Assembly: GCA_019359515.1 (NCBI GenBank)
Contig: JAHHHC010000011.1
Span: forward strand, 1 to 64,000
Source: Desmonostoc vinosum HA7617-LM4
Lineage (GTDB): Bacteria; Cyanobacteriota; Cyanobacteriia; Cyanobacteriales; Nostocaceae
Length of the DNA: 64,000 nucleotides
Direction: 5' to 3'
Both the position numbers and the translations under genes were made by a program. Every line of letters starts with the position of its first letter. The first letter of the stretch is position 1. Shown piece after piece: positions 39,856 through 53,456 of this stretch. The notes beneath the pieces were generated by a model. The model worked only from the letters and a program-made list of their open reading frames with translations, was not told the origin of the DNA and did no database searches.

Positions 39856-40431
39856 CTATAGTTGACAAAGTGCTTTAAGAACTTGTAACAACTGAATTGA
39901 CCGTTCTTTTTCCATAAAATTTAATTCTGGCATCAAGTGATAAATAGGAGGATGCCCTTGTTGGATATAAACAAACTGATAACTTCTACCGTTAGTTGTT
40001 AAACCCCAAACTGATTTTTGATTATCTAAACTTTTATAAGCATATGTGAGTAGTTGAGATAATCCAGTTGAGATATCAATCTGACTATTTTTAGATTCAA
40101 TGATCAGTATCCAAAAATATGTTTGAGTTTTTGTATGCTTAACCTTACTGACAGCTAAAATATCAAATCTTCCTTTGATTTTGATATCTTCATCTTCAAC
40201 TTCAATATCACTAATATCTTCTTCTAAACGAATCTCAACAGGATAGCGATAAAAGCCAGCTAACCTCAGTATTGGAGCAACTACAAGAAACTTTACCTGA
40301 CCTTCAGAAACTTTGCCTGATCTCAGGTAACGTCGAAAGTCATCTCTAATTTGTAAAAGTTCTTGTTGTTCGGTCTCTAAGAGAGGTTCTAGAGATAACA
40401 AAGCAGAAAATGAGTCACTGTACTGTTCCAT
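39856..40431 (-). CDS. PD-(D/E)XK nuclease-like protein (type I R-subunit N-domain type)
   Basis: 191 residues. N-terminal helices (IRDDFRRYLRSGKVSEGQVKFLVVAPILRLAGFY) precede the nuclease core: D in GRFDILAV, then ESK in WILIIESKNS (the E-x-K pair), then GLSQLLTYAYKSL with the trailing Gln. This is the fold of HsdR N-terminal domains and stand-alone homologues common in cyanobacteria. No helicase or methylase is attached. It ends 12 nt before the dihydroorotase homologue on the same strand, so it may be the distal or proximal member of a two-gene unit. Confidence 0.75.
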   Translation of the reverse strand: MEQYSDSFSALLSLEPLLETEQQELLQIRDDFRRYLRSGKVSEGQVKFLVVAPILRLAGFYRYPVEIRLEEDISDIEVEDEDIKIKGRFDILAVSKVKHTKTQTYFWILIIESKNSQIDISTGLSQLLTYAYKSLDNQKSVWGLTTNGRSYQFVYIQQGHPPIYHLMPELNFMEKERSIQLLQVLKALCQL

Positions 40432-40443
40432 AACTGGTTGTAT

Positions 40444-41811
40444 TTAACACCAAGTTTGTACAACACGACCCTTTATTTGTTGTCCTAGCCAAGGTGTATT
40501 ACTAGAGAGTGTATATAGATTTTTGCGCTCGACTTTCCAGGTTTGCTGGGGGTCAAATAGAGTTAGTTCAGCTGGTTGATGAGGAACAATATTATTTACT
40601 TTTTGTCCCAAACATTCTGCTGGTCGAGTACTCAAAGCACTCCATAATTCTAAGGCTGTAAATTCTCCAGTTTCTACCAAATATTCCCATAGTAAAGGTA
40701 ATGCTAATTCTAAACCAATTGCCCCTGGTGGCGCTTCGGCAAAGGCTTGGACTTTTTCTTCGTAGGTGTAAGGTGCATGGTCAATGGCGATCGCATCTAT
40801 AATACCTGCACGTACCCCTGCACGCAACGCCGCCAGATCGCTAGGATTACCTAAAGGTGGTTCTATATGTAAGCTGGTATCGTAACTTTTGATGGCTTTG
40901 GTATCTAGTAACAGGTGCATCCAAGTTGTACTGGCGGTGATAGGCAACCCAGCAGCCTTAGCTGAGGCAATTAACTCCACACTCCGAGCTGTGGAAACGC
41001 GCATAATGTGTACTGGTGTAGCGATGTCTGCAACTAATTCTAACAAAGCAGCGATAGCAGCTGTTTCAGCACTGGCGGGTACGGGAGGTAAACCAAACCG
41101 AAAAGCGTCCGAGCCTTCCCGCATGATACCGTTTGATTTGAGTTGGCGATCGCATGGCCAAAACGCCACTGGTTTGCCCAAGGGTTGAAGATATTCCAAC
41201 ACCCGCCGCACTATCCCCAAATTTTCCCACGGTTGACCATCAGTAAAACCAACTACTCCTGCTGCTGCTAAATCTGCCAATTCCGTCATTTGTTTCCCAG
41301 CAACATCAACAGTAATAGCACCCCAGGTATGAAGATGAGAGAGAGAATAAGACGCAAAGATGGGGGGACGCGGTGAGTCTAGTGAGTAAGGAGGGTTTCC
41401 TGGAGCAGGCAACTGGCTAACCTGTAAGGGGGACGCGGAGACATTTTTCATCATACCTCCACGTCCTTGCATCTTTTTCAAGAACTGTGCCACCATCGCA
41501 GGGTTATCAATGGCTGGAGAGGTATCGGGTAAAATACTAATTCTGGTAAAGCCACCAGCAGCAGCAGCTTGCAATAGAGATAATAAAGTCTCTCGTTCTT
41601 CAAACCCCGGTTCGCTGGAGTGGCTATACAAATCTACTAATCCAGTCCCCAGAACTAATCCCCGACAATCTCTAATTTGAGTATCAGAGGTGATATCAGC
41701 AATAGATGGGGCGACTGCTTGAATACAATTATCAGCAATCAGTACATCAATTATCTGGTCAGTTTCTGAAACTGGGTCAATCACCCTTACTTGTTGCAGC
41801 AGTTCAGTCAT
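40444..41811 (-). CDS. Dihydroorotase homologue with lost metal ligands
   Basis: 455 residues, amidohydrolase fold. The canonical DHOase metal motif DxHxHxREPG reads DLYSHSSEPG here (Y62 for the first His, S65-S66 where family members have x-Arg), and the late motif TDHAPH reads IDHAPY. At least two zinc-binding His are gone, as in non-catalytic PyrX-type subunits that assemble with aspartate carbamoyltransferase. Residues 117-157 (MMKNVSASPLQ...) are an in-frame insertion encoded by a repeat-type segment (41340-41460 with GGGGACGCGG). Genome pipelines will call it dihydroorotase (pyrC). Catalysis is doubtful. Confidence 0.82.
   Translation of the reverse strand: MTELLQQVRVIDPVSETDQIIDVLIADNCIQAVAPSIADITSDTQIRDCRGLVLGTGLVDLYSHSSEPGFEERETLLSLLQAAAAGGFTRISILPDTSPAIDNPAMVAQFLKKMQGRGGMMKNVSASPLQVSQLPAPGNPPYSLDSPRPPIFASYSLSHLHTWGAITVDVAGKQMTELADLAAAGVVGFTDGQPWENLGIVRRVLEYLQPLGKPVAFWPCDRQLKSNGIMREGSDAFRFGLPPVPASAETAAIAALLELVADIATPVHIMRVSTARSVELIASAKAAGLPITASTTWMHLLLDTKAIKSYDTSLHIEPPLGNPSDLAALRAGVRAGIIDAIAIDHAPYTYEEKVQAFAEAPPGAIGLELALPLLWEYLVETGEFTALELWSALSTRPAECLGQKVNNIVPHQPAELTLFDPQQTWKVERKNLYTLSSNTPWLGQQIKGRVVQTWC
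41340..41460. repeat. Repeat segment inside the dihydroorotase homologue
   Basis: GGGGACGCGGTGAG and GGGGACGCGGAGAC units, the same word as in intergenic GGGGACGCG arrays, flank a segment with GAGGGTTTCCTGGAGCAGGC. The length is compatible with the reading frame and adds about 40 residues at a surface-loop position. Confidence 0.6.
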
Positions 41812-42001: not shown

Positions 42002-43351
42002 TTACAAAGCTCCTGCTGCGGTTTTATCTAGTACGCCGCCACCCAAGTGGGCGGTAATATTCATTGCTTGCAATACTGGTAAACCGTTGAGTTCCGAGGA
42101 GTAATCTATGACGCTGACTGCACCATTACCTTGGCGAAAATTCCAGAAATTTTCCGCAGATAAACCCAGAATATGACACAGCAAGGTTTTATTAGTCGCG
42201 TCGTGAGCCACTACTAATCCAGTTTGGAGTTTGTTAGTTAATGCTGTTTGGACGATTGATTGCCAAGTTGCGACACTGCGTTCCCACACTTGTTGTAAAT
42301 TTTCTCCTTCGGGCATTTGTACTTCCCCTGGCGTTTGCCGCCAGCGCTGCAACTCTCCAGGAAATTCTTGCTCTATTTCTGTTTCTAATTTTCCTTCCCA
42401 GAGTCCATGGCTGATTTCTCTCAACCCATCTTGTAATTCCAACTTTACACTAGGATGGTGACGCAAGATGATTTGTGCTGTTTCTTTGGGACGCAGCATA
42501 GAACTACTAACAGCAAAATCAAGAGCTACTTCTTGGAGATATTCGCCTGCTTTTTGGGCTTGTTGCCTCCCATTGTCGTTGAGTGGAACGTCAATTTGAC
42601 CTTGAAATCTCGTTTGGCGATTCCACTCGGTTTCTCCATGACGCACTAACAACAATCGGACTCCGTGATGGTTTGGTCGCAATGAGGGTAAAATTTCCCC
42701 CATGTGTTGCGTTTGATTCATCGACTCTAGTTGAACGGGTGCTTCTAATCCACCGGCAAAATTTAGTACCGAAATACCACAGTTAGATTGCTGTATGCAA
42801 TGGTAGCGACTGGGAGAAATACCCAATGCCGTGCTAATCAGGGCGCGATTAATGCCGTTATGCCCGACTATGAGAATAGTTTCGTTTCGATGCTGGGGTA
42901 AAATTTTTTGCCAGAACTGCCGCGCTTGCTCGTACAAAGCAAGGACAGGGAAATGTTCTTTTGTTCCCTGTGCATCGTTGACTAACATCCGCAGCTCGTG
43001 GGGGCGTTCGTGCCAAGTACGATAGTCTTCGGGAAACTTCTCTTTTACATCAGCAGTGAGCATTTCTTCCCATAGGGGAAGGTCAATTTCTAACAATTGA
43101 TCAGAAGTTTGCAAACCAGCATTTCCTGGATGAGTTGCTAACTCGTTATGGATAATGTCTGCTGTTTGTTTTGCTCTTTGTAAAGGACTGCTGTAAACAG
43201 CGTCAAATACAATATTGCTGAGGGCTTTACCTACTTTAATCGCATCATCACGACCTTTTTCTGTTAATTTTGACACATCAGTGCGCCCTTGGATACGACG
43301 CTCGGTGTTATAGCTGCTTTGACCGTGGCGCACAATGATGACACGAGCCAT
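42002..43351 (-). CDS. Histidine phosphatase family protein with two PGM domains
   Basis: 449 residues. Two tandem phosphoglycerate-mutase-like domains each carry the RHG catalytic motif: IIVRHGQSSYNTERRIQGR at the N-terminus and LLLVRHGETEWNRQTRFQGQ near residue 232. Second histidines lie in TILIVGHNGINRA and GLVVAHDATNK. Both domains therefore look competent. The two-domain form is common in cyanobacteria; relatives act on phosphosugars or phosphoserine, and the substrate here is not known. The ATG is at 43351. Monocistronic. Confidence 0.9.
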   Translation of the reverse strand: MARVIIVRHGQSSYNTERRIQGRTDVSKLTEKGRDDAIKVGKALSNIVFDAVYSSPLQRAKQTADIIHNELATHPGNAGLQTSDQLLEIDLPLWEEMLTADVKEKFPEDYRTWHERPHELRMLVNDAQGTKEHFPVLALYEQARQFWQKILPQHRNETILIVGHNGINRALISTALGISPSRYHCIQQSNCGISVLNFAGGLEAPVQLESMNQTQHMGEILPSLRPNHHGVRLLLVRHGETEWNRQTRFQGQIDVPLNDNGRQQAQKAGEYLQEVALDFAVSSSMLRPKETAQIILRHHPSVKLELQDGLREISHGLWEGKLETEIEQEFPGELQRWRQTPGEVQMPEGENLQQVWERSVATWQSIVQTALTNKLQTGLVVAHDATNKTLLCHILGLSAENFWNFRQGNGAVSVIDYSSELNGLPVLQAMNITAHLGGGVLDKTAAGAL

Positions 43352-43688
43352 CCGTCTTGCCCTCCTCTATCTAAAGGACTAATTTTACTGCAAAATGTTT
43401 ATACAATTATCTATTAGAGATGTTTTGCTTGCGAGTCAAGCTGTATACACAACTAGAACTTATAATGATGCGATCGCGCTTTCAAAGCATATTGTTCATT
43501 GTAAAGGTATATTAAGCCCAAGCCTTATAACTCAAATGTGGACAAATGCGATCGCACTACCTATGGGCAGAAGTTGAAAGAAGCTGCTGAAAAACTAGGT
43601 GTATCGGTGCAGACAAACAAATCGCTCTCAAAGTCCAGGCTAAAGCCTGTGAGTTGAAAAACTCTAAGCCGCCCAATTACAGAACCGT

Positions 43689-43887
43689 CGCATTTGCTAT
43701 TTTGGCGATCGCATTTGCTATTTTGGCGACTGCATTTGTTATTTCGGCGACTGCATTTGTTATTTTGGTGATCGCATTTGTTATTTCGGCGACTGCATTT
43801 GTTATTTCGGCGATCGCATTTGCTATTTCGGCGATCGCATTTGCTATTTCGGCGACTGCATTTGTTATTTTGGCGATCGCATTTGCT
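43689..43887. repeat. 21-bp HIP1 minisatellite, 9.5 units
   Basis: The unit CGCATTTGCTATTTCGGCGAT repeats nine times plus a 10-bp remainder. Unit junctions are either the HIP1 octamer GCGATCGC or the variant GCGACTGC (or GTGATCGC once). 21 is divisible by 3, so frames stay open across it (AFAILAI-type heptapeptides on the plus strand, NSKCDRR on the minus). Confidence 0.9.
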
Positions 43888-44346: not shown

Positions 44347-46503
44347 ATGCTCAATATCAGTCAACTTGAATCTTCCCTGTGGGAAGCCGCAGACCAACTC
44401 CGTGCTAACTCAAAACTCAATGCTAATGAATACAGTATGCCCGTACTGGGGCTAATCTTTCTACGCCATGCGACAAATCGCTTCAATGCTGTAAAGACGG
44501 AGATTGAAAAGAGTTTACCTTCGCGGGGTGGAAAAAAACGCCCGATTACCAAAGATGACTTTAAAGGAAAGTCAGCAATTTTTTTACCAACTGAAGCTCA
44601 GTATGATTACATTCTGAATTTGGCAGAAAACGCTGATGTTGGCAAGGCGATTAATACAGCGATGAAAGCGATTGAGGATGAAACTCAGATGTTGCAGGGG
44701 GTGTTACCGAAGGAGTACACCAGCTTTGAGCCGGATTTGCTGTATAGTTTGGTGCGAATTTTTGACCGGGAGGAGTTGCGGAAAGCCACGGGTGATGTGT
44801 TTGGGCGAATTTATGAGTATTTTTTGAATAAGTTTGCCATGAGTGGCGCACAGGAAGGAGGCGAATTTTTTACACCGCCTTCTTTGGTACGGACGATTGT
44901 AAATATGATTGAACCTGACCGGGGAAATGTCTTAGATCCTGCTTGTGGTAGTGCGGGTATGTTTGTGCAGACGGGACATTTTGTGGAAAATCGCGGTGAG
45001 GATGCGTCTGCAAAAATTACTTTTTACGGACAGGAGAAATCGGATACTAACACCCGTTTAGCGCGGATGAACTTAGCGGTTCACGCTTTAGAAGGGATAA
45101 TTCGCCAAGGTAACACTTTTTACGATCGCTGGGAAGAGTTGCTTGGTCAATGTGATTTTGTCATGTCTAACCCGCCGTTTAACGTCGATGGGGTGAGTCC
45201 AGAGAAGGTGAAGACTGACTCCCGGCTGTTTACTGAGAAAAAGATACCGGGAATTGCTGCGAAAACTAAAGCAGTGAGCAATGCAAATTACCTTTGGATA
45301 CAGTATTTTTACAGTTATTTAAATCAGCGAGGTAGAGCCGGGTTTGTAATGGCGAGTTCGGCATCGGATGCGGGACATGGGGAAAAGGAGATTCGAGAGG
45401 AGTTAATTGCCACTCAAGCGGTGGATGTGATTGTTTCTATTGGCACAAACTTTTTTTACACAAAATCTCTACCTTGTACATTGTGGTTTTTTGACAAGGG
45501 AAAACCAGCAGAACGCCAAGATAAAGTGTTGATGATTGATGCGCGGAATATTTACCGGGTAGTGACGCGCAAAATCCGCGATTTTAGTGAAGAACAACTC
45601 CAGAATATCACTGCGATCGCTTGGTTGTATCGCGGACAGCAAAAACGTTATTTAGGGTTGGTGCAAGATTATTTAAACAAGACGCATCAAGAAGCGGCGA
45701 CTATTGCAGGTGCGTTGACACAGTTAGAGTCACCGTTAATTAAGTTGACACAATTATTGCAGAGTTTTAGCGATCGTCTTGGGGCTTCCCTTCCTTTATT
45801 AAAAGATTTACCGGAAGTTGAGGGATTAGTTGCTGAAGATATCGCTAATCAGAATATAGAGACTTTCCGTGCTACTTTGGTTGAGTTAGAAGTGGGGATT
45901 CAAGAATTTACTGCGGCGAGAGAAGATTTAATTAGTGAGTTACAAGTGCATCTTGCATGGTTTGCTACTCAAGCTGAGTCACTTTCTACTAATGAAGCGC
46001 AAAAAGACTGTGCAGTAAAGTTTGTACAATTTATTCCCCAATTGAAAACTCTGCAAAAGCACATTAACGAAGTGCATAAACTCGCCACTCGCGCTGTGGA
46101 ACTGGCAGAGAAAAAGTTAGACGCACGTAAACAAGAAACTTGGGACGCAAAGGAAATTAAAAAACAACGTGATGCACTGGATACAGCGCGAGATACGGCT
46201 ATTTCTGCTATTAAATCTACGTTGTATGTGAAAGCACAAGTTAGCTGGTTACAATCACGCTTTCCCGAAGCCGTGTTTGTGGATGTACCAGGGTTGTGTA
46301 AGGTGGTAACGCGGGATGAAATAACCCAGCAGGATAGTAGTTTAACACCTGGGCGTTATGTTGGTGTGGCTGCCGTGGATGGGGAAGACGAGGATGATTT
46401 TGAGGAGAGAATGCGGGAAATTAATTTAGAGTTGGCGAGTTTGAATGAGGAAGCGGTGGAGTTAGCGGCGAGTATTGCTGCTAATTTTGAGGATTTACTG
46501 TGA
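44347..46503 (+). CDS. hsdM: Type I restriction-modification system, methyltransferase subunit
   Basis: 718 residues. The N-terminal HsdM helical domain (LESSLWEAADQLRAN ... YSMPVLGLIFLRH) is followed by the N6-adenine methylase domain. EFFTPPSLVRTIV precedes the SAM motif DPACGSAGMF (197-206), and the catalytic motif NPPF is at 275-278. It is longer than the usual 500-550 residues because of a C-terminal helical, coiled-coil-like region (about 430-718, LEEKKLDARKQETWDAKEIKKQ-like). The ATG is at 44347, and it overlaps hsdS by the TGATG arrangement. With HsdS it methylates host DNA, and with HsdR it forms the restriction complex. Confidence 0.95.
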   Translation: MLNISQLESSLWEAADQLRANSKLNANEYSMPVLGLIFLRHATNRFNAVKTEIEKSLPSRGGKKRPITKDDFKGKSAIFLPTEAQYDYILNLAENADVGKAINTAMKAIEDETQMLQGVLPKEYTSFEPDLLYSLVRIFDREELRKATGDVFGRIYEYFLNKFAMSGAQEGGEFFTPPSLVRTIVNMIEPDRGNVLDPACGSAGMFVQTGHFVENRGEDASAKITFYGQEKSDTNTRLARMNLAVHALEGIIRQGNTFYDRWEELLGQCDFVMSNPPFNVDGVSPEKVKTDSRLFTEKKIPGIAAKTKAVSNANYLWIQYFYSYLNQRGRAGFVMASSASDAGHGEKEIREELIATQAVDVIVSIGTNFFYTKSLPCTLWFFDKGKPAERQDKVLMIDARNIYRVVTRKIRDFSEEQLQNITAIAWLYRGQQKRYLGLVQDYLNKTHQEAATIAGALTQLESPLIKLTQLLQSFSDRLGASLPLLKDLPEVEGLVAEDIANQNIETFRATLVELEVGIQEFTAAREDLISELQVHLAWFATQAESLSTNEAQKDCAVKFVQFIPQLKTLQKHINEVHKLATRAVELAEKKLDARKQETWDAKEIKKQRDALDTARDTAISAIKSTLYVKAQVSWLQSRFPEAVFVDVPGLCKVVTRDEITQQDSSLTPGRYVGVAAVDGEDEDDFEERMREINLELASLNEEAVELAASIAANFEDLL

Positions 46504-47759
46504 TGACAAAAGTTTTTCATAGACAATTAGTTTCCTTATTAAACCACTGTGACTTTTTAGCCGGTTATTCTTTCAAAAGTTCTCGTTTTAGCCTTTCACC
46601 AGAAGATGTTCCGCTAGTTAAAGGTGAAAATCTCGGCCATCGTGAAATAGACTGGATGAAAGCAGTTAGGTGGCCTGCCAGTGAAGCAAAAGACTTTGAG
46701 AAGTTCGAGCTAAATCCAGGTGATGTTGTCCTTGCAATGGATCGTCCTATTGTTCAAGGTCGTTTGAAGTTTTCATGGATACGTAATCACGAACCTCGTG
46801 CATTGTTAGTACAACGGGTTGCTCGTCTTCGTGGATATAACGGTTTAGAAACTGACTTTTTACGTTACTTAGTAGCGAGTCCAGCTTTTCAAGCTCACAT
46901 TGAAACAATTACCACTGGCGTTAACGTTCCTCACATTAGTGGAAAAGATATTCTATCCTACTCGTTTGCTTTACCGCCACTTGCAACTCAACAACGCATA
47001 GCTAACATCCTCTCAACCTACGATCGCCTCATCGACAACAACAACCGCCGAATAGCACTGCTGGAAGAGTCCATCCATCTGCTTTACAAGGAATGGTTTG
47101 TGCATCTGCGCTTCCCTGGCTACGAGTCAGTAAAGGTAGTTAATGGTATTCCAGAGGGGTGGAGAGTTTTGACATTAGATGATATTGTTTTAGAAATTAT
47201 TGACTACCGAGGCAAAACACCAAAAAAACTAGGTAGTGATTGGTCAAATTCAGGAATCATAGCACTTTCTGCATTGAATGTAAAAAAAGGTAAGCTTATT
47301 AATTTAGAGAAGTGTAAGCTTGTTGATGAAGATTTATATCAAAAATGGATGAAGTCAGAACTAAAACAGGGTGATATTTTGATGACTTCAGAAGCTCCTT
47401 TAGGAGAACTGTATTATCTTGCTGAGGATAATAAGTTTTGTTTGAGCCAAAGATTATATAGTATCAGAGCAAATCCAGAAGTTATTAAACCAGTTATTCT
47501 ATTTTGCGCTTTAAATTCGTCTCAGATGCAGGGAGAAATTCATGCTCGAAAAAGTGGGACTACAGTTTTCGGGATTCGTCAGTCTCAATTACGCAAAGTT
47601 CCTATAATAGTACCTTCAATAGAGATGCAAAATCAGGCATCTGAAATTTTAAATAATTTATTTATTCAAAAAGAAAAATTACAAAAAACTATATATAAGC
47701 TACAAGAAGCCCGTGATTTACTCCTTCCTCGCCTGATGAACGGAAGTATCGCCGTGTAG
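46503..47759 (+). CDS. hsdS: Type I restriction-modification system, specificity subunit
   Basis: 418 residues from the ATG at 46503, which overlaps the hsdM stop. It has two target-recognition domains, each followed by a conserved helix: PHISGKDILSYSFALPPLATQQRIANILSTYDRLIDNNNRRIALLEESI closes the first, and PSIEMQNQASEILNNLFIQKEKLQKTIYKLQEARDLLLPRLMNG closes the second. The bipartite DNA site cannot be read from the sequence. The second half is more A/T-rich than the first, compatible with recombination of recognition domains. hsdR follows only after about 2.5 kb of other genes. Confidence 0.94.
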   Translation: MTKVFHRQLVSLLNHCDFLAGYSFKSSRFSLSPEDVPLVKGENLGHREIDWMKAVRWPASEAKDFEKFELNPGDVVLAMDRPIVQGRLKFSWIRNHEPRALLVQRVARLRGYNGLETDFLRYLVASPAFQAHIETITTGVNVPHISGKDILSYSFALPPLATQQRIANILSTYDRLIDNNNRRIALLEESIHLLYKEWFVHLRFPGYESVKVVNGIPEGWRVLTLDDIVLEIIDYRGKTPKKLGSDWSNSGIIALSALNVKKGKLINLEKCKLVDEDLYQKWMKSELKQGDILMTSEAPLGELYYLAEDNKFCLSQRLYSIRANPEVIKPVILFCALNSSQMQGEIHARKSGTTVFGIRQSQLRKVPIIVPSIEMQNQASEILNNLFIQKEKLQKTIYKLQEARDLLLPRLMNGSIAV

Positions 47760-47803
47760 AAAACAAATAGCTATCATATCATACTTGAAAAAGTACTCTC
47801 ATA

Positions 47804-48205
47804 ATGAGCCTTACTTTTAATCCAGAAACTTACGCCCTATTACTAGCTAAGTATCAACCAAAAGTAATTACAAATGACGCAGAAAACGAACAAGCAACAC
47901 TCATAGCTGAAGAACTCGCACACCGAACAAACCGAACATCTGAAGAATCGGCTTTATATGATTTGTTGATTGCTTTAATAGAAAAATATGAAAATGAAAC
48001 ATACCCAATGGGTGAAACAAACTCATTATCAATACTTCTCCATTTAATCGAAGCTCGAAATTTACAACAAGCTGATTTAATTGGTGTAATTGGTTCGAGT
48101 AGTATTGTGTCTGAAATTATCAACGGTAAGCAAGAGATTAGTAAAACACAAGCGAAAGCATTGAGTGAATTTTTCCAAGTTGATCCTGAGTTGTTTATAG
48201 ATTGA
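47804..48205 (+). CDS. HigA-like antitoxin / XRE-type regulator
   Basis: 133 residues. The N-terminal half (FNPETYALLLAKYQPKVITNDAENEQATLIAEELAHR) and the C-terminal helix-turn-helix (LLHLIEARNLQQADLIGVIGSSSIVSEIINGKQEISKTQAKALSEFFQVDPELFI) match COG5499-type HigA antitoxins. No HigB toxin gene is adjacent, so it is an orphan or a regulator of the restriction locus. It lies 44 nt after hsdS on the same strand. Confidence 0.82.
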   Translation: MSLTFNPETYALLLAKYQPKVITNDAENEQATLIAEELAHRTNRTSEESALYDLLIALIEKYENETYPMGETNSLSILLHLIEARNLQQADLIGVIGSSSIVSEIINGKQEISKTQAKALSEFFQVDPELFID

Positions 48206-48235
48206 TTATCAACCTGTAACCGAGGAAATTGTCGA

Positions 48236-48571
48236 ATGGATAAACTAACAAAATATCAACACATAATTCAGCAACTTCTCCAAGAATACGCTGCAATTTC
48301 TCATCAAGATACAGAAATTGAAACCCAATTAATTTTTGACACAGAACATCACCACTATCAACTTGTGAATGTCGTCTGGAAAAATGACCGTCGTGTTTAT
48401 GGTTGTTTTTTACATCTAGACATCAAAGATGGTAAAGTTTGGCTGCAACACAATGGAACAGAAAATGAAGTTGGAGAAGATTTAGCAAATTTAGGTATCC
48501 CCAAACAGGATATTGTCATCGGCTTTCATTCGCCATTTAAACGCCAATTCACAGATTATGCTGTAGGTTAA
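48236..48571 (+). CDS. XisI family protein
   Basis: 111 residues: YQHIIQQLLQEYA, TQLIFDTEHHHYQLVNVVWKNDRRVYGCFLHLDIKDGKVWLQHNGTE, then VGEDLANLGIPKQDIVIGFHSP and YAVG at the end. This is the full pattern of XisI, first described as an excision-controlling factor of the Anabaena fdxN element and normally paired with XisH, a PD-(D/E)XK-like protein. No xisH precedes it here; the orphan may act with another nuclease. It lies 30 nt after the HigA-like gene. Confidence 0.88.
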   Translation: MDKLTKYQHIIQQLLQEYAAISHQDTEIETQLIFDTEHHHYQLVNVVWKNDRRVYGCFLHLDIKDGKVWLQHNGTENEVGEDLANLGIPKQDIVIGFHSPFKRQFTDYAVG

Positions 48572-48593
48572 ATATTAAGAGGTTGCTGAAAAA

Positions 48594-48950
48594 GTGGCTA
48601 AAATTTTAGATAGAGAGACAAAACAGAATATCGCTGGGTATACAGAAATTCTAGCGGGTTTGCGGTTTGACAAAACTTTGATTCGTCAGATGTTAAGTGA
48701 GGATATTATGCAAGAGTCCGTTATTTATCAAGATATTTTACAGAAGGGACAAGAACAGGGAAAACAACAAGAGGCTTTTTCTTTGTGTATGTCTCTGTTG
48801 GAAGAACGTTTTGGTGAGATTGATGATTCAATTTATCCAAAAGTTCAAGCTTTTAAAATTGAACAATTAGAGTCTTTATGTCGCGCACTTCTTAGAATGT
48901 CTGAGGTAGATGATTTAGTTGCTTGGTTGGATGAGCAACAAAGTATTTGA
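48594..48950 (+). pseudogene. C-terminal fragment of an Rpn/PD-(D/E)XK family transposase-like nuclease
   Basis: 118 residues with a GTG start. IAGYTEILAGLRFDKTLIRQML and EDIMQESVIYQDILQKGQEQG correspond to the C-terminal third of the Rpn/DUF4351 nuclease family abundant in cyanobacteria, followed by the DUF4351-like LLEERFGEIDD ... IEQLESLCRALLRM. The nuclease domain that should precede it is missing, so it is probably a remnant. It could still be translated as a small protein since the frame is intact. Confidence 0.7.
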
Positions 48951-48979
48951 AGTATTGTTTTAAAGGTGATACTTGCTAC

Positions 48980-49084
48980 TTAGGATTCGTGTAAAAATAA
49001 GTTGAACAATTTAATATTTGTAGTGCGAGCATCTTGCCCGCGCGAGCAAGATGCTCGCACTACTTATTTTTACTTGATGCCTTA
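48980..49084 (-). mobile_element. 105-bp MITE, copy B
   Basis: Inverted copy of the element at 35542-35646. It differs inside the central palindrome (one arm carries CTCGC where the other copy has CCCGC), and the ends are TTAGG...CCTTA. It sits between the nuclease fragment and the broken PIN gene. Confidence 0.85.
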
Positions 49085-49113
49085 CCCCATCCCAAGGCTA
49101 TCTCTCAAAATTT

Positions 49114-49413
49114 TTACCTTACCAAAAGCTTACCTTGACTTTTGGCTGCGGAAATCACACCATTGTTAGCTGTAAAAACTTTAATTCCTCGAACAGTTAA
49201 ATAATCTTTATCATCAGTAATTATTTGTTTTATACCTGCTTTATCCATCGCTTATAATATCAGCAAGTCGTAACCATCAAGCAACTGAGTTTGAAACCCA
49301 GTAAGTGTGGTATTAGTTTTAGTTTCATCTATCAATATTTCCGTACAAGTAGCAATTGATATAACCTGTTTCCAAGCAATTTCTACTTCTGCAACTACCT
49401 TTGCTCTCATCAT
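49114..49413 (-). pseudogene. PIN-domain gene remnant with an internal stop
   Basis: Reading from the ATG at 49413, the frame gives ...TGFQTQLLDGYDLLIL, then a TAA stop (near 49252), and continues in the same frame as AMDKAGIKQIITDDKDYLTV, RGIKVFTANNGVIS and AAKSQGKLLVR. The second half matches the C-terminal part of PIN ribonucleases (A...AG...ITDD.D). The N-terminal acidic motif (LDTN) is absent. It is truncated at the 5' end and interrupted, so non-functional. Confidence 0.75.
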
Positions 49414-49488
49414 GACTTAAAATTACACATCCATCATCGCTTAAAATTTAAATATCCCAGCTGTTGATATTCACAAGCCTTAAAAATC

Positions 49489-49701
49489 ATGTTAGATGAA
49501 ACTACTATTGAGCAACGCTTGGTAAATCTTGAACGTACAGTTACCGAACTCAAACGTCTGCTGATAGCATCTCCCACCCCTAGCAATTGGTTAGAAAAAG
49601 TGACTGGTTCCATTTCTGATGAGCAAACTTTCCTGGAAGTTTTGGAATATGGAAAATCGTTACGTTACGCAGACAAACCCGCAGACGAAATGAGTGAATA
49701 A
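49489..49701 (+). CDS. VapB-like antitoxin partner
   Basis: 70 residues: MLDETTIEQRLVNLERTVTELKRLL (short coiled coil), then NWLEKVTGSISDEQTFLEVLEYGKSLR. It lies 2 nt before a VapC-type toxin gene, the usual place of the antitoxin. This type lacks a recognisable DNA-binding domain. The EVLEYGKSLR segment is common to cyanobacterial antitoxin-like proteins of PIN pairs. The ATG is at 49489. Confidence 0.72.
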   Translation: MLDETTIEQRLVNLERTVTELKRLLIASPTPSNWLEKVTGSISDEQTFLEVLEYGKSLRYADKPADEMSE

Positions 49702-49703
49702 GT

Positions 49704-50132
49704 GTGAAGTACCTTTTTGATACCGACCACATTAGTTTTATACAACGCCGTTCCAGTCAAGAATACGCAAATATAGCTGCTAAAATTGCTAAACACTCAC
49801 CCGGAGATTTTGCATTTTCTATTGTTAGCCTTCACGAGCAGGTACTTGGTGCAAATGCTTTTATAAATCGCACCCAAACATCGGCTGATACAATTCGAGG
49901 GTACGCCATATTACTAGAGATTTTGCAAGGCTTTTCCGTTGCTCCAGTTCTAGCATTTGACGCAGCATCCGCCACAATTTTTGACACACTAAGAGCAAAA
50001 CGGGTTCGTATCGCTACAATGGATTTACGAATCGCATCAATAGCCCTTTCCCAGAATTTAGTATTATTGACTCGAAACAGTCGTGATTTTAGCCAAGTAC
50101 CAGACTTGGTGACAGAAGATTGGACAGTATAA
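49704..50132 (+). CDS. vapC: PIN-domain ribonuclease, VapC-type toxin
   Basis: 142 residues from a GTG start. The PIN acids are visible: D7 and D9 region in YLFDTDHISFI, E in SIVSLHEQVLGA, D in IATMDLRIASIALSQNLVLLTRNSRDF (the RNSRDF end takes the place of TxxxxDF). VapC toxins cleave tRNA or rRNA in the cytosol, with the antitoxin from the upstream gene. The pair stands between hsdS and hsdR, consistent with an addiction or defence role for the locus. Confidence 0.87.
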   Translation: MKYLFDTDHISFIQRRSSQEYANIAAKIAKHSPGDFAFSIVSLHEQVLGANAFINRTQTSADTIRGYAILLEILQGFSVAPVLAFDAASATIFDTLRAKRVRIATMDLRIASIALSQNLVLLTRNSRDFSQVPDLVTEDWTV

Positions 50133-50243
50133 ATAAATTACCAATTGGAAATCACAATTGTCAGTTTTGGCTAGGTGATACTTGCTACTTACCCAATTCC
50201 AAAGCTATCAATATAATAGCTACCTGTATCACCTATCACGCCC

Positions 50244-53200
50244 ATGAGTGCCGAATATTCCGAAGACCGCCTAGTACAACAAACTACCGCTAACTTCTTT
50301 GAACAAACCCTGAAATGGCACTCAGTTTACGCATACAAAAAAGAAACCTTCGGCACTAACGGTACACTAGGACGCAAAGATAAACGAGAAGTTGTCCTCA
50401 CACGCTATCTTCGCCAAGCATTAGAGAAATTTAATCCTGGTCATCCACAGCAAGTATACGACGATGCGATCGCACAATTCACCACATCCAATATTTCAGA
50501 CCAATTAGTTACCATCAACCAGAAAAAATACCAACTCATCCGCGAAGGTATCCCAGAGAAACCCTACAAAAATCCAGAGGGTGAAACTATCAATCCTCGC
50601 CTCAAAGTGATTGACTTTCAAAACCCCGAAAATAATCATTTCCTGGTTGTGCGGGAGTTGTCTATTAAAGGTTCTCTCTATTCCAAACGGCCTGATATCA
50701 TCGGTTTTGTTAATGGAATTCCTTTACTATTTATTGAACTTAAAGCCACCCATCGTAACGTCAGAGTGGCTTACGAAGACAACTACACTGATTACAAAGA
50801 CACTATACCCGAAATTTTCCATCACAACGCCATAGTCATGTTAAGTAATGGAATAGAGGGTAAAGTAGGTAGCATCACCAGTTGTTACAGCCATTTTCAA
50901 GAGTGGAAACGTCTAGAGGAACAGGAACTCGGCAAAGTTGACTACCAAACAATGTTGATGGGGATGTGTCGTAAAGACAATTTCCTCGACATCATCGAAA
51001 ACTTCATTCTCTTTGATGACAGTAGCGGTAAAACTATCAAAATTCTAGCTCGTAATCACCAGTTTCTTGGTGTTAACCGCGCATTTACCGCCATTCAACA
51101 GCGAGAAGTTCGAGAAGGTAAGCTTGGCGTTTTTTGGCATACTCAAGGTAGCGGTAAATCTTACTCGATGGCATTTCTCACTCGCAAAGCCCACCGCCAA
51201 TTACCAGGTAATTTTACCTTTGTCATCGTCACAGACCGCCAAGAATTAGATAATCAAATCGTAAAAACCTTTGCTGGCGTTGGTGCTATCAAAGAGACTA
51301 ATACTCAAGCGGCCAGTGGTGAACAATTAGCTGAATTACTCAAAGACAACCATCGCTACGTTTTCACGCTTATTCACAAATTCAACAAACCAGGTGAGAT
51401 TTACTCCCTCCGTCCCGATATTATCGTCATCTCCGACGAAGCGCACCGCAGCCAATACGGTAAACTTGCGGAAAATATGCGCTCCTGCTTACCCCATGCA
51501 TCTTTCATCGGCTTTACTGGTACACCCTTGATGGAGTCGCAAGAAGACCAACTTACTCGTAGGGTTTTCGGTGGCTACGTTTCCACCTACGACTTCCAAC
51601 GTGCTGTCGAAGATGGTGCAACAGTACCCCTTTACTACGACAATCGAGGCGAAGAATTATATTATGACGACAAAGGTAATCAACGCCAGGTTGCAGCTGA
51701 CGAGGAACTAAATCAACGCCTCGCTACTGCTATTGAACAATTTGACCTTGACGCTGAACAAGAACAAGCCGTCCGTCACCGCTTGGGGGGAGAATATCTC
51801 ATCCTCACCGCCGAAAAACGTTTAGATCGAATCGCCCAAGACTTAGTAGCTCACTATACCCAACGTTGGCAAACAGGAAAAGCCATGCTTGTTTGTCTAG
51901 ATAAGATTACTGCGGTGCGAATGCACGGACTAATCGATAAATACTGGAAACAAACAATACAAGCACAGAAACAATTAGTCAAACAAGCTGCTGATGAACA
52001 AGAGGAAGTGGAACACCAGCAACATCTGCAATGGTTGCAGTCAACCGAATATTTAGTTGTGATTAGCGAAGCCCAAAACGAAGTTAAAACTTTCAAAGAT
52101 TGGGGTTTAGATATAATTCCCCATCGCCAAATTATCAAAAGTCGCAATCTAGAGGAAGAATTTAAGAACGAAAAACACCCTTTCCGCCTTGCTATTGTCT
52201 GCGCCATGTGGTTAACAGGCTTTGATGTTCCCAGCCTTGCCACATTATATATAGATAAACCCTTGCAAGGACATACTCTCATGCAAGCGATCGCTCGTGC
52301 AAACCGCGTCTACGAAGGGAAAAATAACGGGTTGTTAATTGATTACAACGGTATTTTAACAAGTCTCCGTGCTGCCCTTGCTAGATACTCTCGCGCAGAA
52401 GTAGGAAGCGAAGATGAAAGTATAACACCTTACAACGACTTGAACCAATTACAAGCAGATTATGCGATCGCACTTCAAAGTTGTATTGACCACATCGCCA
52501 ATCTGGGGTTTAACTTGCAAGAATTGGTAGAAACAGCAGGCTTTGATAAAATTGCTGCTTTAGCAAATGCAGTTAATGCAGTTTGTACTAATGATGAATC
52601 TCGCGCCCGCTTTGAAGTATTAGCAAGGGAAGTCTTTAAAAAGAAACAGGCGCTAATTACTGAACCGAAATTAACAGCACCTTACCAAGGAAGATATAAC
52701 GCCATTGAGCAAATTTACAAATACTTACACGAACAACACAAAATATCTGTAGATATCAAAGCTGTTCTCCGTTCTTTACAAGGTATTGTTAGCGAGTTTA
52801 TCAACGTTGATACTTCTCGTCTTCCAGGTTCAGAGTCAGGCAAAACTTACGATATTAGCAATATAGACTTTGAGTTATTAAAAGCAGAATTTGCCAATTC
52901 CTCAACTAAAAATACCTCAGTTCAAACTTTGAAAGAAGCCGTCGAACGCCAACTTCAGCGAATGATACAAAAAAACCCATCTCGCATTGACTACTACACG
53001 CGCTATCAACAAGTTATCCAAAACTATAACCGCGAAACTGACCGAGTAGCCATTGAGCAAACTTTTGAGGAACTGCTGAAACTTGTCAAAGACCTGTCCG
53101 AAGAAGATACTCGTGCTGTCCGCGAAGGTTTAAGTGAAGAACACCTTGCCGTTTTTGACTTGCTTTGCTCATCTAAAGATAATTTAGATACAACGACTAG

Positions 53201-53456
53201 AAACCGCGTTAAACAAGTTGCTCAATCTTTAATTGAAGCCGTGAAATTACAATTACAGCAACTAGAAAACTGGCGAGATAAGGAATCTACAACAGCCACA
53301 ATTAAAAGTTTTATTTACGATTATTTATACAGCGAAGACACAGGTTTACCTGTAGATGCTTACGATGATAGCGATGTAGATAACTTGAGTAATATAGTAT
53401 TTCTCCATATTTATCAGCAGTATAAAAATGCTAACAAGCATACTTATGCTGCGTAA
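50244..53456 (+). CDS. hsdR: Type I restriction-modification system, restriction (motor) subunit
   Basis: 1070 residues. The N-terminal PD-(D/E)XK nuclease is visible as RPDIIGFVNGIPLLFIELKA (D151, E165, K167). The SF2 motor has Walker A HTQGSGKS (299-306), DEAH at 398-401, FIGFTGTPL, and the late motifs VCAMWLTGFDVPSLATLYIDKPLQGHTLMQAIARANRV. The C-terminal helical domain binds the HsdM/HsdS core. It cleaves unmethylated DNA after ATP-driven translocation. It is separated from hsdS by about 2.5 kb of small genes but has the same orientation. The frame is intact, so the system may be active. Confidence 0.95.
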   Translation: MSAEYSEDRLVQQTTANFFEQTLKWHSVYAYKKETFGTNGTLGRKDKREVVLTRYLRQALEKFNPGHPQQVYDDAIAQFTTSNISDQLVTINQKKYQLIREGIPEKPYKNPEGETINPRLKVIDFQNPENNHFLVVRELSIKGSLYSKRPDIIGFVNGIPLLFIELKATHRNVRVAYEDNYTDYKDTIPEIFHHNAIVMLSNGIEGKVGSITSCYSHFQEWKRLEEQELGKVDYQTMLMGMCRKDNFLDIIENFILFDDSSGKTIKILARNHQFLGVNRAFTAIQQREVREGKLGVFWHTQGSGKSYSMAFLTRKAHRQLPGNFTFVIVTDRQELDNQIVKTFAGVGAIKETNTQAASGEQLAELLKDNHRYVFTLIHKFNKPGEIYSLRPDIIVISDEAHRSQYGKLAENMRSCLPHASFIGFTGTPLMESQEDQLTRRVFGGYVSTYDFQRAVEDGATVPLYYDNRGEELYYDDKGNQRQVAADEELNQRLATAIEQFDLDAEQEQAVRHRLGGEYLILTAEKRLDRIAQDLVAHYTQRWQTGKAMLVCLDKITAVRMHGLIDKYWKQTIQAQKQLVKQAADEQEEVEHQQHLQWLQSTEYLVVISEAQNEVKTFKDWGLDIIPHRQIIKSRNLEEEFKNEKHPFRLAIVCAMWLTGFDVPSLATLYIDKPLQGHTLMQAIARANRVYEGKNNGLLIDYNGILTSLRAALARYSRAEVGSEDESITPYNDLNQLQADYAIALQSCIDHIANLGFNLQELVETAGFDKIAALANAVNAVCTNDESRARFEVLAREVFKKKQALITEPKLTAPYQGRYNAIEQIYKYLHEQHKISVDIKAVLRSLQGIVSEFINVDTSRLPGSESGKTYDISNIDFELLKAEFANSSTKNTSVQTLKEAVERQLQRMIQKNPSRIDYYTRYQQVIQNYNRETDRVAIEQTFEELLKLVKDLSEEDTRAVREGLSEEHLAVFDLLCSSKDNLDTTTRNRVKQVAQSLIEAVKLQLQQLENWRDKESTTATIKSFIYDYLYSEDTGLPVDAYDDSDVDNLSNIVFLHIYQQYKNANKHTYAA

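Follow-up and report, generated by a model that had tools for sequence, protein, structure and literature searches.

The window analysed here, a stretch of 64,000 nucleotides of Desmonostoc vinosum HA7617-LM4, encodes a protein that is probably a catalytically dead type-I dihydroorotase (DHO) turned structural subunit, and by analogy with the PyrX (PyrC' or pDHO) proteins of class A2 aspartate carbamoyltransferases (ATCases) it is likely to be an inactive partner of ATCase in a putative complex with PyrB. The protein is a member of NF005614 (PRK07369), a family named 'dihydroorotase' by NCBI and NCBIfam, with a score of 681 bits where the cut-off is 456; it also scores 344 bits against TIGR00857. 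Judged by the residues of the window protein, the activity claimed in that name is unsupported. The best 80 named relatives of the window protein come from Nostoc and its kin at 68-79% identity. The family occurs in almost all genomes sampled from the class, and its filing under an activity that is very probably absent misleads metabolic models and readings of essentiality. Among the titles and abstract openings of the open-licence papers listed (for the broadest topics the best 15 of 198 and 25 of 2,170) we found no description of a cyanobacterial pDHO.

Active site, fold and conservation

The metal-site description in PMC3880350 gives the residues of type-I dihydroorotases (DHOases), in the numbering of the Aquifex aeolicus enzyme, as His61, His63, Asp153, His180, His232 and Asp305. 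The alignment places Tyr, His, a gap, Trp, Arg and Asp at these positions of the window protein (Table 1), which is not the complement of an active type-I DHOase: three metal-site histidines (61, 180 and 232) are lost, and Asp153 has no counterpart, Asp191 aligning with the preceding aspartate. The residues that we take to contact the substrate, namely the arginine of HxHxR, the asparagine of MPNT and, after His254 of E. coli, the final histidine of TDHAPH, are replaced by Ser66, Asp96 and Tyr348, such that the window protein retains two of the nine residues compared and Aquifex DHO all nine. The earlier note, which read the motifs correctly as DLYSH (residues 60-64) and IDHAPY (343-348), had counted two lost metal-binding histidines; the first does lie at a ligand position (Tyr62), but the histidine of TDHAPH is presumably a substrate residue and not a ligand. 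Its list was also incomplete, as the metal-site histidines at 180 and 232 (now Trp218 and Arg271) and the substrate arginine and asparagine are gone as well, and the dead site that it proposed is borne out by the alignment for metal and substrate residues alike. The position of Tyr348 is absent from the metal-ligand list given in PMC3880350.

Table 1. Features of the window, with residues of the window protein set against Aquifex DHO numbering, and the separate dihydroorotase of the source genome; positions are those of the window unless a contig is named.
Feature	Position	Strand	Remarks
Probable inactive dihydroorotase-like protein (pDHO/PyrX-like)	40444..41811	-	455 aa, ATG start, NF005614/PRK07369
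Tyr62 at first metal His (His61 of Aquifex DHO)	41626..41628	-	Tyr in 71/73 orthologues, 81/81 of named set
His64 at second metal His (His63), sole metal-site His retained	41620..41622	-	His in 55/73
Trp218 at metal-site His180	41158..41160	-	His in 0/73
Arg271 at metal-site His232	40999..41001	-	Arg in 71/73, 81/81 of named set
Asp344 at Asp305, retained	40780..40782	-	Asp in 69/73
Tyr348 at presumed substrate-binding His of TDHAPH	40768..40770	-	Tyr in 60/73, His in 3/73
In-frame insertion, about residues 118-161 (about 44), helix-to-strand loop	41329..41460	-	Largely a dispersed repeat of the source genome
Upstream neighbour, two histidine-phosphatase (phosphoglycerate-mutase-like) domains	42002..43351	-	PF00300 in two stretches; same direction
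HsdM	44347-46503
HsdS	46500-47759
HTH protein	47804-48205
HsdR	50244-53456
PRK07575 DHOase of the source genome (G000)	contig C81, L002:1450-2847		832 bits, cut-off 529

Despite these losses, the window protein is predicted to take the whole type-I DHO fold, as PyrX proteins do. The AlphaFold2 monomer model (pLDDT 88.7, pTM 0.89) found in Foldseek, as its first match, the Aquifex DHO of the ATCase complex 3d6n (E 1.1e-41), with the B. anthracis DHO 4yiw next and close (4.3e-41). VIA-align placed 2z00 first (Z 53.3), 3d6n and 4bjh tying at 52.9, and the scores of 2z00, 4bjh, 3d6n, 4yiw and 3mpg differed by no more than 1.2 Z units, with 407-414 residues superposed at rmsd 1.7-2.2. A phmmer search against the PDB likewise put Aquifex DHO first in sequence, tied with other Aquifex entries.

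The loss of the site is a property of the family. We compared 73 orthologues, comprising the window protein and 72 others from the 103 listed photosynthetic genomes outside the family f25, one of the 73 rows (L087, genome G066) representing the longer fragment of a disrupted gene. None keeps the full site and none retains the substrate arginine. At position 61 tyrosine is replaced once by Phe and once by His, and the sole row with this histidine (L084) is without 180, 232 and the arginine; position 63 varies in letter (H, Y, Q, R, T, A), and the two exceptions to arginine at 232 are glycines. Tyrosine at 61 and arginine at 232 are invariant in the 81 proteins made up of the window protein and its 80 named relatives. 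With 72 other sampled and 80 named orthologues showing the loss, chance and an error in sequencing a single gene are both ruled out as its cause. Six alpha-type proteins (f25), taken as orthologues because the gene order phosphatase - target - lepB recurs at all six loci, are also dead, with quite different letters. All nine residues are retained in 11 of 11 proteins of relatives (f31, f38) that we infer to be non-photosynthetic from their placement outside the class and their small genomes.

The gene is under purifying selection: dN/dS between the window gene and its 80 named relatives is 0.100-0.178 with a median of 0.136 (Nei-Gojobori; median dS 0.98). The family scores above the NF005614 cut-off in 102 of 291 genomes of the phylum; counting matches of any strength raises this to 182 genomes, with active relatives among the weaker matches. 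In an unselected draw, 103 listed genomes of the window's class outside f25 have a match, 102 of them above the cut-off and one (G066) broken; among the genomes listed, none of this class outside f25 lacks an orthologue, 89 match-less genomes lying outside the listing. That the gene is a decaying pseudogene is scarcely credible, for although the G066 copy is broken and a Prochlorococcus-like lineage has lost the gene, the frame is open in the window, the median dN/dS is low and the family exceeds its cut-off in that many genomes. The genome of the broken orthologue (L087, 3924-5374) retains both PRK07575 and PyrB, and the break represents either a real loss or an assembly error.

The conservation of the replacing residues, with Arg271, Tyr62 and Asp344 the rule, could also point to an enzymatic activity kept or gained through a rebuilt pocket (Tyr62, Arg271, Asp344-His345, Tyr348), metal-free or with one metal, and according to PMC2770081 a paralogue of PyrC in Pseudomonas that lacks the zinc residues was reported to be active. 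We consider this improbable, as positions 63 and 180 vary and the six alpha-type proteins have quite different letters, so that no single pocket extends across the family, and a salt bridge within a dead site would explain the conservation equally well.

As to origin, the non-photosynthetic relatives have pyrB and pyrC as a pair, which suggests descent from a DHOase that was probably active and worked alongside PyrB. A tree with all 50 rows clusters the dead proteins, on long branches. A second tree, leaving out eight rows (Methylobacterium, Nonomuraea, Acinetobacter and five alpha-type rows), recovers the photosynthetic family as one clade (100/100) beside three alphaproteobacterial pDHOs (96/82); the alternative with all proteins of the phylum in one clade scores 1.17 log units lower, and the test does not reject it (p-AU 0.473). 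The site may have been lost once, early and in common with proteobacteria, or in separate events.

The working dihydroorotase

A dead homologue implied, in the earlier note, a second DHOase elsewhere in the genome, and one is found: the source genome (7.2 Mb, 94 contigs, 99.96% complete) encodes a PRK07575 protein of predicted activity on a separate contig (Table 1). It has QxH for HxH, as does the P. gingivalis protein 2gwn, and serine at the Asp153 column, and it retains the other residues compared. The proposed search for a canonical pyrC thus yielded a separate DHOase, but not a strictly canonical one, the class-II family (TIGR00856) being without a match above its cut-off, which removes class-II PyrC as a candidate for the DHOase of this genome. 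A hydantoinase/allantoinase-like protein on another contig (C72) fails to reach the cut-off of any of the 25 families displayed.

We searched for both DHOases in 43 genomes chosen as carrying an orthologue of the window gene (broken in G066). An intact PRK07575 without class II above its cut-off occurs in 33, and class II with PRK07575 absent or broken in eight; 41 hence have exactly one of the two, none has both and two (G129, a draft of about 170 contigs, and G183) have neither, an exclusion with a Fisher p of 3e-7 when genomes are counted as independent. In this tally PRK07575 was classed as broken in G195, where it is partial with one stop, and in G183, where it has three stops, though it is above the cut-off in both, and as intact in G011, where one stop is reported and the frame is a full 449 aa. 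Remains of PRK07575 lie near the window gene's orthologue in G195, G183 and G062, and in G070 a search by TIGR00857 turned up that orthologue alone. Since PRK07575 and class II replace each other, PRK07575 is likely to be the working enzyme; gene content strongly suggests that it is the working DHOase here and class-II PyrC that in other lineages, and the alternation also implies that PRK07575 should be active with glutamine at the metal position. In the 43-genome table, then, the dead homologue stays constant and the DHOase that does the work is exchanged, a swap that separates the catalytic from the structural job.

The same table bears on whether the window protein might itself still be the cell's DHOase, acting in complex with PyrB despite its losses. 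The NCBIfam name would have it so, the Aquifex DHO is described as active only with ATCase in PMC3880350, and an Aquifex H180A/H232A double mutant was, by the title of 4bjh, solved as a reactor complex. The window protein is, however, also without His61, Asp153 and the presumed substrate arginine, asparagine and histidine, and 41 of the 43 genomes have exactly one other candidate in intact PRK07575 or class-II PyrC, which together make this reading very improbable.

Relationship to PyrB

Taking the window protein as a probable structural subunit, we propose that it would dimerise and bridge PyrB trimers into a dodecamer, as the PyrX/pDHO proteins of Pseudomonas and Sinorhizobium do, that this bridging would stabilise or activate PyrB, and that the separate enzyme would close carbamoyl aspartate to dihydroorotate. 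The resemblance to PyrX/pDHO of class A2 ATCases (Pseudomonas and Sinorhizobium smc01361) covers several features: 1) a full-length type-I DHO fold with zinc ligands and substrate residues lost; 2) a separate DHOase elsewhere in the same genome, here PRK07575 of predicted activity with glutamine for the first metal histidine; and 3) a PyrB without PyrI. PyrB is above its cut-off in 54 of 57 genomes (31/31 beta-type, 23/26 others) as well as in the source genome, the three genomes without it belonging to f31 and having only fragmentary TIGR00857 matches; PyrI was found in none of 16 genomes searched, which rules out regulation of PyrB by PyrI there. The window protein differs from the class A2 proteins in that its gene lies apart from pyrB, in its own signature (Y-H-G/S ... 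R-D-Y), in its absence from some Prochlorococcus-like genomes that keep PyrB, and in that its complex with PyrB is so far a putative one.

In Pseudomonas aeruginosa the pDHO is described as inactive yet required for ATCase activity in PMC7053772. In Sinorhizobium meliloti disruption of smc01361, which adjoins pyrB, leads to pyrimidine auxotrophy, and the authors of PMC5929573 propose it to be PyrX; we find that the protein adjoining pyrB in this organism retains none of the nine residues compared. Of these nine, Azospirillum retains four and Ruegeria and Acinetobacter one each, in differing combinations, so that decay differs between lineages. Aquifex DHO, the partner in the 3d6n dodecamer, is active in its complex with all nine residues kept, of which the window protein keeps two. 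A further likeness is to the inactive DHO domain of fungal Ura2/CAD-like proteins, which PMC7053772 also ties to ATCase; that pseudo-DHO is a fused domain and the cyanobacterial one a separate protein, and the two are likened by description, not by sequence.

Linkage to pyrB, usual for PyrX genes without defining them, is missing: in the source genome pyrB lies on another contig (C60), and none of the 49 photosynthetic loci read (stretches of up to 9.5 kb, 43 of them beta-type and six alpha-type) shows it next to the gene. By contrast to these loci, pyrB directly precedes the gene for the related active DHOase in 7 of 7 f31 loci, and it is absent from the stretch in 4 of 4 f38 loci. A mirror-tree comparison over 22 genomes, a weak test, does not favour PyrB, with partial correlations of 0.44 for PyrB and 0.59 for PRK07575. 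Against solved ATCases, the source-genome PyrB is closest to that of B. subtilis, a free trimer (4e-47), with Aquifex next (2e-42). Of the PyrX role put forward in the earlier note, the dead site and the second DHOase stand, the unlinked pyrB and the Prochlorococcus-like genomes without the protein speak against it, and the role itself remains a probable one. The source-genome PyrB (L014:1012-2169) also has about 50 extra residues inserted in frame (SASPVGDATRRLPHRGTLSDQG...), which are repeat-like by eye.

The higher mirror-tree value for PRK07575 is one of two observations suggesting that a dead DHOase might have another partner or role, for instance binding and regulating PRK07575 or serving as a free-standing scaffold. 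The other is the gene order phosphatase - target - lepB - PRK07575 in L055 (with PRK07575 broken), L056, L059 and L080, and in L084 without the phosphatase. This order may be only ancestral and the mirror-tree is weak; moreover the protein persists in the eight genomes that have class II and an absent or broken PRK07575 (among 43 chosen as carriers), and in alpha-type cyanobacteria with class II, on account of which we regard such a role as unlikely.

Returning to the probable ATCase partner, its clean loss in one lineage sets a bound on the role. The gene was not found in 10 of 11 listed genomes of genus g50, which we take to be Prochlorococcus-like partly from its family, and pyrB is kept in 10 of 10. 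In the five gene-less g50 genomes inspected (L340-L354) the phosphatase and lepB adjoin, with 56-61 bases between stop-to-stop frames; in G215 these two genes flank the gene. As the gene is absent there and pyrB present, PyrB presumably works without it, and this gene content argues against a universal need of the protein for ATCase activity. Among 101 PyrB columns conserved in 39 genomes bearing the gene, six are changed in the 10 genomes lacking it, four of them conservatively; a conserved Val-Pro becoming Ile-Thr in 10 of 10 is the sole pair standing out. For the 150 columns that 31 beta-type PyrB proteins conserve, the number changed is 19 in alpha-type genomes that have the gene, 40 in alpha-type genomes that lack it, 54 in f31 and 26 in f38, counts in which relatedness is ignored, and we treat the column changes as a lead. 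In a more elaborate and unlikely version, most photosynthetic Cyanobacteria would have a class A2-like ATCase whose dead DHO subunit uses a remodelled, metal-free pocket (Tyr62, Arg271, Asp344-His345, Tyr348) to bind an effector and so regulate PyrB; the Prochlorococcus-like lineage would have lost the subunit cleanly, leaving its PyrB free, with the Val-Pro to Ile-Thr change as the matching alteration in PyrB. If the protein is an ATCase partner, the photosynthetic Cyanobacteria would join the class A2 kind with genes unlinked, and the clean loss would be a natural experiment on an ATCase becoming independent of its partner.

Insertion loop and gene neighbourhood

The in-frame insertion of the window protein (Table 1) is modelled as disordered, with pLDDT below 50 at residues 125-143 and 150-152. 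A 161-base stretch (window 41310-41470) covering it has 42 matches in the source genome, itself included. Of the 26 other places examined out of 41 (L007-L012 and L355-L374), six lie wholly within open frames of at least 200 aa, stop to stop, and the repeat is used in the same reading frame at least twice (ASPLRVRQLPVEGNPP-like, L008 and L010). Across 81 orthologues the flanks of this loop are fixed and its length ranges from 12 to 59 residues, with 33 lengths and differing fillings, many of them repeat-like by eye; in Nostoc and its kin the loop appears to be a hot spot for insertions.

The histidine phosphatase upstream is the commonest neighbour of the gene, at 25 of 43 beta-type and all six alpha-type loci examined. 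Directly downstream, window 39856-40431 encodes a 191-aa protein with no Pfam match that is, by eye only, similar to restriction-enzyme R-subunit N-terminal proteins. Beyond the phosphatase gene a type I restriction-modification set occupies window 44347-53456, and between that gene and hsdM lies a 21-base tandem repeat of 9.5 copies (43688-43887).
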